Assembly: GCA_017405115.1 (NCBI GenBank)
Contig: JAFRBA010000083.1
Location: 1-5,478 of the forward strand
Length of the DNA stretch: 5,478 nucleotides
Source of the DNA: Kiritimatiellia bacterium
Lineage (GTDB): Bacteria > Verrucomicrobiota > Kiritimatiellia > RFP12 > UBA1067
Direction: 5' to 3'
Every line of letters begins with the position of its first letter. Positions within the stretch are counted from its first letter, which is position 1. The notes under the pieces are model-generated. The model searched no databases. It was not told the DNA's origin and saw only the letters and a program-made list of their open reading frames with translations. Below are positions 2,425 through 5,478 of the stretch, piece by piece. The position numbers and the translations under genes are program-made.

Positions 2425-2450
2425 ATATTGAGAAAGTAGATTTTCGATGA
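2421..2450 (+). other. Possible 9-codon minicistron bridging two genes
   Basis: An ATG at 2421 overlaps the upstream stop (TGA 2422-2424) and opens a 9-codon frame, M-N-I-E-K-V-D-F-R. Its own stop (TGA 2448-2450) overlaps the ATG at 2447 of the next gene. It could carry ribosomes across the 22-base gap by termination and reinitiation. No good Shine-Dalgarno motif precedes it, and so short a frame can arise by chance. Confidence 0.2.
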
Positions 2451-2482
2451 TAAAGAAGCTAGCATTCATGATGGTTGTGCTT
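2430..2482 (+). repeat. Leader/signal-peptide DNA segment, copy 2
   Basis: This is the counterpart of the segment at 1460-1512. It has GAGAAAG at 2430-2436, then the first 12 codons of the EF-hand protein (M-I-K-K-L-A-F-M-M-V-V-L against M-M-K-N-L-V-F-M-I-V-A-L). Most differences fall at codon third positions, as expected for diverged copies of one coding segment. The AT-richer composition ends about where the signal peptide ends, near 2500. Confidence 0.45.
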
Positions 2483-3031
2483 CTGTCTGCAATCATTCTT
2501 TCATCCGTCGCCACCGCGACAGACATGCGGCCAGTTCTTCCGCCTGTCCACCACCTCGACACGGAGGTGGTGACGAACGTTGCTGTTTCGGCGCAGGGGT
2601 CGCGCGAATACTCCTTCGAACTGGCGTTCTCGGGCACGATGTCGAACAATGTTGAGATTGCGTTTGGCGCTGACGCCGATGGGGACGGTGCGCTCTCGGT
2701 CGACGAGATTGGGCTTTCCGCAGGATGGGACTGTGGCGAGTGGTTCGTGATGAACACCGCGATTGGCGAGCGGGTGTCAGTTTCGGCGGCGGAAGGTGCG
2801 CACAGTTTCGTCGGAACGATTCGTCTCCGCACGAGCGGGCGCGTGCGGGAGATCGCATTCCGCGATGGTGCGGCGGCTCTCTTTCCGATGCTCCATGGTG
2901 CGGCGCGGACGTGGTCGTTCCCCGCCGGTTGGAACATGGTGCGCCTCGTCGGGCGCGGCGAAAACGTCCGCTCCGGCGAGCAGTTTCACGTCACGGCCAC
3001 CAGCCACGGAATAACGCTCCGTTTGAAGTGA
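2447..3031 (+). CDS. Small exported protein with one canonical EF-hand loop, function unknown
   Basis: A 194-aa protein. Residues 1-24 are a signal peptide (I-K-K, long hydrophobic core, A-T-A cleavage site), so the mature protein is outside the cytoplasm. Residues 76-87, D-A-D-G-D-G-A-L-S-V-D-E, match the 12-residue EF-hand loop at every ligand position (Asp 1, 3, 5; Gly 6; Leu 8; Glu 12), so calcium binding is likely. The flanking parts look beta-rich rather than helical (S-F-E-L-A-F-S-G-T before, aromatic and Gly-rich strands after), so this is a single loop inserted in a beta fold, not a calmodulin-like protein. A dockerin would need two such loops, and only one is present. The start is the ATG at 2447, 10 bases after GAGAAAG. 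The mature part is GC-rich like the trp genes, while the signal-peptide DNA is not. Probably co-transcribed with the two upstream genes. Confidence 0.8.
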   Translation: MIKKLAFMMVVLLSAIILSSVATATDMRPVLPPVHHLDTEVVTNVAVSAQGSREYSFELAFSGTMSNNVEIAFGADADGDGALSVDEIGLSAGWDCGEWFVMNTAIGERVSVSAAEGAHSFVGTIRLRTSGRVREIAFRDGAAALFPMLHGAARTWSFPAGWNMVRLVGRGENVRSGEQFHVTATSHGITLRLK

Positions 3032-3062
3032 CATCCGCCAACGAGACGTAAATGCGATTTGC

Positions 3063-3088
3063 CCCCTTGACGCGGCGCAGGGGTTTTT
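3063..3088 (+). terminator. Weak terminator-like hairpin ending the upstream cluster
   Basis: CCCCT (3063-3067) can pair with AGGGG (3079-3083) around an 11-base loop and is followed directly by TTTTT (3084-3088). It lies 31 bases after the last upstream stop codon. The stem is only 5 bp, so efficiency may be low. It overlaps the -35 box of the trp promoter. Confidence 0.35.
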
Positions 3089-3096
3089 GGTAGACT
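3067..3096 (+). promoter_or_regulatory. Sigma-70-type promoter of the trp operon
   Basis: The -35 box is TTGACG (3067-3072) and the -10 box is TAGACT (3091-3096), separated by 18 bases. A TGG just before the -10 (3088-3090) gives an extended -10 element. Transcription would start near 3102-3104, about 16 bases before the leader-peptide ATG, which fits an attenuator leader. No obvious palindromic repressor operator overlaps it. Confidence 0.7.
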
Positions 3097-3119
3097 ATGC
3101 CGCGACAGGACGAAAAGTC

Positions 3120-3179
3120 ATGAGAAACATAGCGATCAACAACTGCTGGTGGTGGCGCCGCGCTTACGAAGCGAGGTAG
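3120..3179 (+). CDS. trpL: trp operon leader peptide
   Basis: A 19-residue open frame, MRNIAINNCWWWRRAYEAR, ending in TAG. Three consecutive TGG codons (3147-3155) are the hallmark of a tryptophan-sensing leader peptide; the peptide itself needs no function beyond being translated. A Shine-Dalgarno AGGA (3107-3110) lies 9 bases before the ATG. It sits just after the promoter, and its last codons form the antiterminator strand. The W-W-W-R-R arrangement resembles what I recall of the trpE leader peptides of rhizobia. It is too short for ordinary gene callers and is therefore easily missed. Confidence 0.88.
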   Translation: MRNIAINNCWWWRRAYEAR

Positions 3180-3211
3180 TCCGCAGCATTTGTCTTGATC
3201 AGGTTAGGACC

Positions 3212-3252
3212 GACGGCCCCGCTTCGAGTGAAGCGGGGCCGTTCTGTTTTCT
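3212..3252 (+). terminator. Attenuator intrinsic terminator before trpE
   Basis: GGCCCCGCTTC (3215-3225) pairs perfectly with GAAGCGGGGCC (3230-3240) around a GAGT tetraloop. The stem is extended at its base by C3214:G3241 and A3213:T3242. A T-rich tail with TTTT (3247-3250) follows. It lies between the leader peptide and trpE, so it would stop transcription when tryptophan is plentiful. Confidence 0.9.
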
Positions 3253-3277
3253 GCCGTAATCACCACAAAACCAAACC

Positions 3278-3283
3278 AAGGAG
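3278..3283 (+). promoter_or_regulatory. Ribosome-binding site that fixes the trpE start
   Basis: AAGGAG lies 4 bases before the ATG at 3288. This sets the trpE start downstream of the attenuator; the upstream in-frame TTG at 3195 would make the protein encode the terminator hairpin. Confidence 0.8.
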
Positions 3284-3287
3284 AGAA

Positions 3288-4757
3288 ATGTTGAGAGAAC
3301 TGACAAAGGAGGCATACGAGGCGAAGGGCGCCGGAGGCGGGATCATCCCCGTCTACCGGGAATACCTCGCCGACATGGAGACTCCGGTCTCCGTGCTGGC
3401 GTACCTGGGCCCCGAGGAGGACGCGTTCCTCCTGGAAAGCGTCGCCGACGGCACCGGCGCGCGCTATTCGTTCATCGGCGTCGAGCCGAGGGAGACGCTG
3501 ATCGCCGACGGGCCGAGCGTGCTCGTCCGCCGGGCGGACGGCGCCATGGACTTCGTCGCGGCCGAGGGCGGGTTCCTCGCCGCGCTAAAGGAAAGGCTCG
3601 CGCAGCGGGGCTTCCGCCCCGACCCGGACCTTCCGCCGCTCCAGGGCGGAGCCGCCGGGTACGTGTCGTACGACGCCGTCGCCGAGTTCGAGCCGCGCGT
3701 CAGGCTGAAGCACGAGCAGGGCACCCCGTCCGCCGCGTTCATGATATCCGAGAAGCTGCTCGTCTTCGACAACCTCCGCCGCACGGTGACCGTCATCGTC
3801 GCGGCGGACGCGTCCGACCCAGACGCCTACCCGAAGGCCCGCGACAAGATAGACGAGCTCTACGCGCGCTTCTTCCGCAGGGAGCGTCCGATGCCTCGCT
3901 CGCACCGCGCCAGGCCCGGCGGCGACGAGGGGTTCGTCCCCGAGATGAGGGCCGAGGAGTTCGCCGAGATCGTCGCGAAGTGCAAGGCCGACATCCTCAA
4001 CGGCGAATGCATCCAGATCGTGCCGTCCCAGAAGTTCACGCGCGAGAGCGACGTCGACTCCGTCTCGCTCTACCGCGCGCTGCGGATGGTCAACCCCTCT
4101 CCGTACAACATCTTCATGAAGATCGGCGACCGCACGATCATCGGCTCCTCGCCGGAGGAGCTCGTGAAGCTCGAGGGGCGCCGCGCCACGACGTGCCCGA
4201 TCGCGGGGACGCGTCCGCGCGGCCTCACCGCCGCCGAGGACGCCGCGAACGAGCGCGACCTAGTCTCCGACGTGAAGGAGAACGCCGAGCACGTCATGCT
4301 CGTGGACCTCGGCCGCAACGACCTCGGCCGCGTCTGCGAGACGGGCAGCGTGAAGGTAGCATCCTTCGCCCACGTCGAGCGCTACTCGCACGTGATGCAC
4401 CTCGTCTCGGACGTCGAGGGCACGCTCGCGCCGGACAAGGACGGCTTCGACCTGCTGCGCGCGGCGTTCCCCGCGGGGACGCTCACAGGCGCGCCGAAGA
4501 TCCGCGCGATGGAGCTGATCGCGCAGTACGAGAAGTCGCCCCGCGGCATATACGGCGGCGCCGCGGGCTACTTCAGCTACACGGGCGACATGGACTTCGC
4601 CATTGTGATCCGCACGCTCGTCAAGGTTGGGCGGACGCTCACCATGAGGGCCGGCGCCGGCATCGTCGCCGACTCCGACCCGCTGAAGGAATACCAGGAG
4701 ACCATCAACAAGTCGAAGGCCGTCTTCGAGGCGGTCAAGTTCGCGGAGGCTCTATGA
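3288..4757 (+). CDS. trpE: Anthranilate synthase component I
   Basis: Cytoplasmic chorismate-binding subunit, 489 aa, full family length. With TrpG it converts chorismate and glutamine to anthranilate, pyruvate and glutamate, the first committed step to tryptophan. The N-terminal domain carries L-L-E-S (residues 48-51), and N-P-S-P-Y is at 269-273; both belong to the tryptophan feedback site in characterised TrpE proteins, so allosteric inhibition is likely. The C-terminal catalytic domain shows G-T-R-P-R-G (307-312), D-L-G-R-N-D-L-G-R (340-348) and G-T-L-T-G-A-P-K (397-404), typical of chorismate-utilising enzymes. The paired trpG, the Trp-codon leader and the L-L-E-S site favour TrpE over the related PabB. 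The start is the ATG at 3288 after AAGGAG. The gene is very GC-rich (4201-4260 is 49/60) and ends in an ATGA overlap with trpG. Transcription is controlled by the attenuator just upstream. Confidence 0.97.
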   Translation: MLRELTKEAYEAKGAGGGIIPVYREYLADMETPVSVLAYLGPEEDAFLLESVADGTGARYSFIGVEPRETLIADGPSVLVRRADGAMDFVAAEGGFLAALKERLAQRGFRPDPDLPPLQGGAAGYVSYDAVAEFEPRVRLKHEQGTPSAAFMISEKLLVFDNLRRTVTVIVAADASDPDAYPKARDKIDELYARFFRRERPMPRSHRARPGGDEGFVPEMRAEEFAEIVAKCKADILNGECIQIVPSQKFTRESDVDSVSLYRALRMVNPSPYNIFMKIGDRTIIGSSPEELVKLEGRRATTCPIAGTRPRGLTAAEDAANERDLVSDVKENAEHVMLVDLGRNDLGRVCETGSVKVASFAHVERYSHVMHLVSDVEGTLAPDKDGFDLLRAAFPAGTLTGAPKIRAMELIAQYEKSPRGIYGGAAGYFSYTGDMDFAIVIRTLVKVGRTLTMRAGAGIVADSDPLKEYQETINKSKAVFEAVKFAEAL

Positions 4758-5338
4758 TACTGATGATAGACAACTACGACTCGTTCACCTACAACCTCGT
4801 GCAGGCGTTCCGCTCGCTTGGCGCCGACATGCAGGTGGTGCGCAACGACGCCATCGACGTCGCGGGCATACGCGCGCTCTCGCCAGAGGCGATCGTCCTC
4901 TCGCCCGGCCCCGGCAACCCCGACTCCGCCGGCGTCACGCTCGAGGCGGCGAAGGCGTTCGCGGGGACTGTCCCCATCTTCGGCGTGTGCCTCGGGCACC
5001 AGTCCGTGGCACAGGCGTTCGGCGCGAAGATCGTGCACGCGAAGCGGCTGATGCACGGCAAGACGAGCCCGGTCACCCACGACGGCAAGGGCGTCTTCGC
5101 CGGCCTCCCGCAGGGCTTCGCCGCGATGCGATACCACTCGCTCGCAGTCGACCGCGACACGCTGCCAGACTGCTTCGAGATAAGCGCCGTGGCCGACGAC
5201 GGCGAGATCATGGGGCTCAGGCACAGGACGATGCCGATAGAGACCGTGCAGTACCACCCCGAGTCCATAGGCACGCCGGAGGGCATGCGGCAGATGCAGA
5301 ACTTCCTCGAAATGGCGAGGGGAAAGGAGATGTCGTGA
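4754..5338 (+). CDS. trpG: Anthranilate synthase component II, glutamine amidotransferase
   Basis: A 194-aa class I glutamine amidotransferase, normal length for TrpG/PabA. It hydrolyses glutamine and passes ammonia to TrpE. Visible motifs: the N-terminal I-D-N-Y-D-S-F-T-Y-N; S-P-G-P-G-N-P of the oxyanion region; the nucleophile Cys79 in G-V-C-L-G-H-Q; and the catalytic His168 and Glu170 in Y-H-P-E-S, followed by T-P-E-G. All triad residues are present. The start ATG at 4754 overlaps the trpE stop (ATGA) and follows GGAGG (4745-4749) by 4 bases, so equimolar coupled translation is expected. TrpG and PabA are hard to separate by sequence, and this subunit might also serve folate synthesis with a distant PabB; its place in the trp operon makes TrpG the main role. 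Confidence 0.96.
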   Translation: MILMIDNYDSFTYNLVQAFRSLGADMQVVRNDAIDVAGIRALSPEAIVLSPGPGNPDSAGVTLEAAKAFAGTVPIFGVCLGHQSVAQAFGAKIVHAKRLMHGKTSPVTHDGKGVFAGLPQGFAAMRYHSLAVDRDTLPDCFEISAVADDGEIMGLRHRTMPIETVQYHPESIGTPEGMRQMQNFLEMARGKEMS

Positions 5339-5415
5339 TGGTGCGCCAAGCAAAGCTCGGCAGAGCTAACAGAATGAAAGGAGTCTGTACGGCAAAGAAA
5401 ACGAAGTGCCGTTAG
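5338..5415 (+). CDS. Possible small basic protein (25 aa) after trpG
   Basis: The ATG at 5338 overlaps the trpG stop by one base (TGATG) and follows AAGGAG (5324-5329) with an ideal 8-base spacing. The 25-codon frame begins M-V-R-Q-A-K-L-G-R and ends K-K-T-K-C-R before TAG. It has 9 Lys/Arg, no Asp or Glu, and 2 Cys. It contains no Trp, so it is not a second tryptophan-sensing leader. It is less GC-rich than trpG. It could be a small protein, a regulatory leader frame for the next gene, or chance; I recognise no family. The evidence is only the ribosome-binding site and the stop-start overlap. Confidence 0.35.
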   Translation: MVRQAKLGRANRMKGVCTAKKTKCR

Positions 5416-5418
5416 GAA

Positions 5419-5460
5419 GATTGGCTGCGCGGAGGGCGACCGACGCGCAGAAGCCCAATC
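5419..5460 (+). other. Stem-loop in the spacer after trpG
   Basis: GATTGG (5419-5424) pairs with CCAATC (5455-5460), and CTGCGCG (5425-5431) pairs with CGCGCAG (5444-5450). That gives 13 bp with a 4-base bulge (5451-5454) and a 12-base loop. No T-run follows, so it is not an intrinsic terminator. It could be an mRNA processing or stability element, or a translation control for the next gene. Confidence 0.5.
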
Positions 5461-5464
5461 CTAC

Positions 5465-5470
5465 AAAGGA
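5465..5470 (+). promoter_or_regulatory. Possible ribosome-binding site of the next operon gene
   Basis: AAAGGA lies 8-13 bases from the window end. The ATG at 5471 directly abuts it, which is too close for normal initiation, so a start at or just past the window edge (base 5478 is an A) is more likely. By operon logic the next gene is probably another trp gene, but none is visible here. Confidence 0.3.
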
Positions 5471-5478
5471 ATGAGCCA

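Follow-up and report, generated by a model that had tools for sequence, protein, structure and literature searches.

Ribosome-mediated transcription attenuation is an already known mechanism. In its E. coli trpL type, the leader peptide is encoded with Trp codons side by side, the 2:3 and 3:4 helices exclude each other, and an intrinsic terminator is present, with trpE next. In E. coli, strand 2 of this switch is located after the leader stop codon. Both the Trp leader and the T-box are represented among the Rfam families, and the PVC group of bacteria includes Chlamydia. For Chlamydia trachomatis trpRBA, the available portion of PMC3937554 describes a predicted and disputed attenuator between trpR and trpB, together with a Trp-rich peptide of 59 residues and a repressor. 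The trp operons of Actinobacteria (Corynebacterium, Streptomyces) are preceded by double or triple UGG codons, a GC-rich terminator, and complementary segments according to the accessible sections of PMC1262725, which also list an attenuator candidate preceding trpS2 of S. avermitilis. In Sinorhizobium meliloti, the attenuator of trpE(G), trpL/rnTrpL, lies on an RNA that begins at the leader ATG itself (PMC7298713, in excerpt). Other leader-ORF motifs are treated in PMC8632094, the accessible part of which leaves Verrucomicrobia unmentioned. In the open-access literature, no report of a trp attenuator was found for Kiritimatiellota, Lentisphaerae, or other Verrucomicrobiota, the Chlamydia prediction aside, and an earlier genome-wide prediction is possible.

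The window analyzed here, meaning the whole stretch of 5,478 nucleotides, carries in order three ORFs up to position 3031, a promoter, a leader, a terminator, trpE, and trpG (Table 1). As judged from its sequence, the region ahead of trpE very probably controls the trp operon by ribosome-mediated transcription attenuation. It has in common with E. coli trpL the adjacent Trp codons, the exclusive 2:3 and 3:4 helices, the intrinsic terminator, and trpE as the next gene. It differs in the placement of strand 2 within the leader ORF, just before the stop codon, so that a ribosome finishing the peptide would mask strand 2. The actinobacterial attenuators, from another phylum, resemble it in the UGG run, the GC-rich terminator, and the complementary segments (PMC1262725, accessible sections). 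The window resembles C. trachomatis trpRBA in its probable PVC-group origin and in a leader peptide rich in Trp close to the predicted attenuator, which is located there between trpR and trpB but here before the biosynthetic trpE (PMC3937554, available portion). The RNA start at ATG seen for S. meliloti rnTrpL is shared by the near-leaderless relatives described below, whereas the window would have a 5′ UTR of ~17 nt with AGGA if transcription starts near 3103 (PMC7298713, in excerpt).

Table 1. Elements of the candidate attenuator and the adjoining trp genes, in window coordinates.
Feature	Position	Strand	Remarks
Promoter	3067-3096	+	TTGACG (3067-3072), 18-nt spacer, TAGACT (3091-3096); TG precedes the -10 element
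Shine-Dalgarno-like site	3107-3110	+	AGGA, weak, 9 nt 5′ of the leader ATG; read from sequence
Leader ORF	3120-3179	+	19 codons, peptide MRNIAINNCWWWRRAYEAR; ATG at 3120, stop TAG at 3177-3179
Regulatory Trp codons	3147-3155	+	Three adjacent codons, UGG UGG UGG; run kept in relatives
Strand 1	3157-3165	+	Part of a predicted small 1:2 protector hairpin; pairs with 3169-3177, -9.1 kcal/mol
Strand 2	3167-3176	+	CGAAGCGAGG; antiterminator 5′ strand in the last leader codons; 9/10 pairs with 3217-3226
Strand 3	3212-3225	+	Terminator 5′ arm; strand 2 pairs with 3217-3226
Strand 4	3230-3243	+	Terminator 3′ arm, followed by CTGTTTTCTG
trpE ribosome-binding site	3278-3283	+	AAGGAG; read from sequence
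trpE	3288-4757	+	Anthranilate synthase component I; domains Anth_synt_I_N and Chorismate_bind
trpG	4754-5338	+	Anthranilate synthase component II; GATase domain; trpG_papA above cut-off

The best model for trpE was trpE_most, which scored 484.7 bits and stayed under its cut-off of 517.7, and trpG overlaps trpE by 4 nt. Along 67% of its length, the window TrpE is 98% identical to a protein annotated as 'anthranilate synthase component I family protein, partial [Kiritimatiellae bacterium]', a match that bears out the PVC-group origin guessed in the preliminary description, and the source is probably a Kiritimatiellae bacterium. The order and phylum sets used below were built around L001, a Kiritimatiellae MAG in which the operon behind the leader runs trpE, a trpG-trpD fusion, trpC, trpB, trpA, and trpF (ORFs named by eye). 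Relative L082 continues into an apparent trpD, also named by eye.

In the window, a group II intron seemingly begins at 5341 (GTGCGCC), two bases past the trpG stop and within the trp operon. An Rfam match to D1D4-4 spans 5370-5476 with 40.9 bits, under the gathering score of 49. DNA like the window from 5341 on is present in 42 of 155 order genomes, some of it 91-99% identical, and the 30 bases preceding 5341 match at just 11-14 of 30 positions in the four intron copies compared. At the other end of the window, the first of the three upstream ORFs has an alpha/beta hydrolase match. The remaining two (1477-2424 and 2447-3031) are adjacent, have hydrophobic N-termini that look alike (MMKNLVFMIV.., MIKKLAFMMV..), and gave no match in a Pfam search; they perhaps encode exported proteins.

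The promoter is the sole promoter-like match on both strands of 2950-3330, where shuffled sequences average 0.2, and TTGACG with its 18-nt spacer recurs in relatives L082, L083, and L091-L095. The promoter, the ribosome-binding site, and the 19-residue leader with three Trp codons, all claimed from the sequence earlier, were re-read in the window, the ribosome-binding site being weak (AGGA alone). Relatives carry WWW, WW, or WxW leaders at the corresponding place.

The terminator, claimed beforehand as 11 or more bp with a U-rich tail, was found as 14 pairs (3212-3243), 10 of them G-C, with the tail CTGTTTTCTG; the U tract after it is broken, which counts against an attenuator. The fold of the 185-nt leader has a z of -3.78, equaled by none of 200 shuffles, and this strength is attributed mainly to the terminator, which alone yields -29.7 kcal/mol. 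The antiterminator was present as proposed, with 3217-3226 (CCCCGCTTCG) and strand 2 paired at all positions except one A x C mismatch. By itself, the 2:3 pairing of the window is at chance level (z of -0.9; 22 of 100 dinucleotide shuffles equal or better), and a search for strand 2 that was free to begin at the first Trp codon or at any point 3′ of it put the start of the best window duplex within the Trp codons. The window antiterminator is credible because its place is fixed in relatives.

Folding with leader bases blocked, a check suggested in the preliminary description, revealed the expected switch. These folds covered 3103-3228, in which strand 4 is absent, with the bases between 3103 and a presumed edge of the ribosome masked. 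Stalling at each of the three Trp codons (edges 3160, 3163, and 3166) gave nine pairs of 2:3; without a ribosome, seven strand 2 positions paired with strand 1, and with the ribosome at the stop codon (edge 3190) not a single 2:3 pair formed. In full-length folds, the 3:4 terminator formed in five of five cases, and antitermination must therefore be kinetic, acting during transcription.

Briefly, RNA polymerase would begin near 3103 and a ribosome would translate the leader. When charged tRNA-Trp is scarce, the ribosome would stall at 3147-3155, covering strand 1 wholly or partly and leaving strand 2 (3167-3176) free to pair with 3217-3226 once this segment is made; formation of 2:3 would block the terminator and allow transcription of trpE, trpG, and the following genes. 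When Trp is plentiful, the ribosome would reach the stop at 3177-3179 and sit on strand 2, whereupon the 3:4 terminator (3212-3243) would end transcription. With no translation, strand 1 would take strand 2, and termination would be the default. The transcription start, leader translation, stalling, and Trp response are what we infer from this arrangement.

Conservation was investigated upstream of trpE in the order and beyond. Among 161 order genomes, 118 have TrpE at E up to 1e-60, and all 118 loci were taken; with the window these make 119, from which three partial hits and two loci with too little upstream DNA were removed, leaving 114. To count as a match, a region needed a short ORF in which a stretch of three codons included two or more for Trp and, at most 150 nt past the ORF stop, a hairpin that reached at least -12 kcal/mol in stability and was followed by a T-rich tail. 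Across these 114 upstream regions (the window and 113 relatives), 77 carry a Trp-rich leader with a terminator, compared with none of the 114 reverse strands and 9 of 1688 further windows on both strands of the same loci. Leader and terminator exceed chance because they are conserved at this rate. Relatives lacking the TGG run or the alternative pairings had been named in advance as evidence against an attenuator; most of the order retains the TGG run together with the terminator.

The scan gave no match in 37 of the 114 order regions, some of which have short upstream DNA and many of which have nothing. L127 has the ORF without a hairpin match and L144 a terminator only; the leader of L138 stands 821 nt upstream, and in L153 an ORF lies closer to the presumed start. 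L100, L101, L104, and L114 are among the order loci with neither a Trp leader in the 1000 nt 5′ of trpE nor an Rfam match. Rfam, applied at gathering thresholds to 20 of these 37 regions, gave zero matches. For wider relatives, 80 loci minus L019 and L044 (too little upstream DNA) left 78, seven of which matched; L002 (Victivallales), L003, and L001, itself a member of the order set, were among them. Control windows matched in 33 of 2518 cases. In the phylum, 299 of 387 genomes have TrpE at E up to 1e-90, and 77 places were scanned, comprising 17 new loci and 60 picked, non-randomly, down the list. Matches were obtained in 48 of the 77 compared with 1 of 77 reversed, or in 46 of 75 after removal of L202 and L203, which repeat order members; some matches (L222, L226, L229, and L233) look false. 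As far as sequence comparison can tell, similar leaders are widespread in the order and present in part of the phylum.

The 2:3 duplex was equaled by at most 1 of 100 shuffles in 24 of the 77 order leaders and by at most 5 in 31; for the 46 phylum leaders, these counts were 7 and 13. A leader's own arm pairs better than foreign arms, with a median z of -0.98 vs. 0.13 in 97 of 123 leaders, the others having been dropped as length-unfit, doubtful, or near-copies. The Mann-Whitney p of this comparison is 9e-17 with relatedness not removed, 22 of the 97 fall in the best 5%, and the window has a z of -0.29. A free search from the first Trp codon onward, run on 118 of 123 leaders, placed the strand 2 start 12-24 nt past the first base of that codon in 52 of 76 order leaders (20% with shuffled arms) and 26 of 42 phylum leaders (24%); such a start would lie immediately in front of a ribosome stalled at the codon. 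Starts closer than 12 nt were obtained for the best duplex in 20 of 76 order leaders (53% with shuffled arms), one of them the window, and in 7 of 42 phylum leaders (42%).

Three families were aligned without structure, their members picked by hand as look-alikes: A2, with 21 of the 77 order leaders; A3, with the window and 19 of the 77; and A4, with 17 of the 46 phylum leaders. In the sister family A2, 98.9% of the 2:3 cells are paired (0 of 500 shuffles), three pairs show changes in both partners (2 of 500), and the covariation score was reached by 0 of 500, while further pair types were unremarkable (75 of 500). Sliding the partner by one column dropped the paired cells to 65% or 40%. For 3:4 in A2, 89.7% of cells are paired and the covariation score again stood at 0 of 500, with both-side-changed pairs unremarkable (102 of 500). 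In A3, the family of the window, 3:4 is 93.1% paired in 20 leaders, with a covariation score at 0 of 500 and six pairs changed on both sides (1 of 500). The 2:3 helix of the same 20 leaders shows no covariation above shuffles (84.2% paired vs. 85.1%; 449 of 500) and is therefore kept mainly by invariant and G-U pairs, with strand 2 at the same alignment place across all 20. Covariation, which the preliminary description had proposed to look for in relatives, was thus seen for 2:3 in A2 and for 3:4 in A2 and A3, and did not extend to 2:3 in the window's own family.

Attenuation by a translating ribosome is the best reading of this locus, resting on the parts, their pairing, their conservation, terminator covariation, sister-family 2:3 covariation, and the constrained folds. 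This central claim of the earlier description holds up, with trpE and then trpG behind the leader, a fitting geometry, folds that switch, TGG run and terminator kept in related genomes, and 2:3 pairs that covary in A2. An ordinary constitutive terminator or insulator, preceded by a WWW ORF that arose by chance, would accommodate the insignificance of the window 2:3 pairing by itself and its lack of covariation within A3. Such an element is nevertheless very improbable in view of how often leader and terminator recur at this place relative to control windows, the 2:3 covariation of A2, and the promoter sitting directly 5′ of the leader. A TnaC-like nascent-peptide sensor, whose leader peptide would bind free Trp and arrest the ribosome in place of slow Trp decoding, is just as hard to credit. 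The residues past the Trp run are indeed alike within families (GFGFA, RGDSPER), but in A2 they are encoded by strand 2, so that RNA pairing can explain them, and between families they vary while the Trp run stays; the TnaC layout, moreover, is not known to include a Trp run.

The least probable explanation, with next to no likelihood, is direct Trp sensing by a protein or a tRNA (TRAP, T-box) beside an incidental ORF. A precedent exists in the Bacillus subtilis trp operon, which is under TRAP control according to the accessible part of its description, and the same partial source gives a TRAP array as ~11 GAG/UAG repeats. No such array is present in 3103-3287, which holds 8 GAG/TAG triplets, the longest run with 1-4 nt spacers being two (282 of 500 shuffles as good). 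Nor was a T-box or other Rfam leader matched: at E up to 5 the window returned nothing but a group II intron and C0719, leaving it unmatched by Rfam leader models, and eight related loci gave zero matches at E up to 0.5. For the Trp attenuator, the search was also extended to further genes of the group. Before trpS, 3 of 30 loci (from 51 genomes) matched the scan, all doubtful and with poor hairpins (reverse 1 of 30), in contrast to the S. avermitilis trpS2 candidate (PMC1262725, accessible sections). Before DAHP synthase, 0 of 30 loci (from 59 genomes) matched (reverse 1 of 30), and a short ORF with a run of at least four His codons preceded hisG in 0 of 30 loci (from 40 genomes).

In 38 of the 77 order leaders vs. 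2.5 in shuffles, and in 17 of the 46 phylum leaders vs. 5.6, an in-frame start codon follows the end of a promoter at a distance of 5-11 nt; L147 and L150 were included via weak matches at other starts. In these cases, for example L087, L113, L135, and L160, little or no 5′ UTR would precede the start codon of the leader mRNA. With the -10 element as its sole criterion, a stricter test gave 28 of 77 vs. 2.4 in the order, and the phylum leaders (4 of 43 vs. 4.3) did not exceed shuffles; near-leaderless starts therefore have good support in the order and weak support beyond it. The longer form, with AGGA, is the one present in the window. In L145-L148 and L150-L152, TACGAA or a close variant occupies the -35 place before TATAAT, 5′ of the leader, and is perhaps a site for another regulator or sigma factor.

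Two terminator-like hairpins at most 30 nt apart follow 30 of the 123 leaders, 10 in the order (L156-L165) and 20 in the phylum (L204, L206, L207, L209, L211-L216, L219-L221, L224, L232, L238, L239, L241, L242, and L245), compared with 0 of 123 on the reverse strand; at any distance, the number is 36 of 123. The TrpE of L209, one of these, is 97% identical over 78% to a Lentisphaeria bacterium protein. Among 33 two-hairpin leaders collected with laxer hairpin settings, the pairing of the post-Trp segment was reached by at most 5% of shuffles for the first arm in 15, for the second in 10, and for both in 7, including L217, whose hairpins overlap. In A4, 91.0% of the cells of the first pairing are paired, and this value and the covariation score each stood at 0 of 500 shuffles; two both-side-changed pairs were unremarkable (309 of 500). 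These comparisons lend only partial support to the idea that both terminators are served by a single segment. Simultaneous pairing with both arms would form a pseudoknot, and the two pairings are therefore read as sequential. It is a tentative proposal, possible rather than probable, that Trp attenuation is old in Kiritimatiellae-Lentisphaeria and has a double-lock form, in which one ribosome-exposed post-Trp segment would complement the 5′ arms of two successive terminators and one stall would open both, often on a near-leaderless mRNA.

Taken together, and with the support of comparison, these observations would add a deep and mostly uncultured group to the range of a textbook regulatory device, and the attenuator yields a prediction on trp control in this group that can be tested. 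The natural variants, with strand 2 within the ORF, near-leaderless starts, or paired terminators, may serve to test how the position of the ribosome sets the switch.
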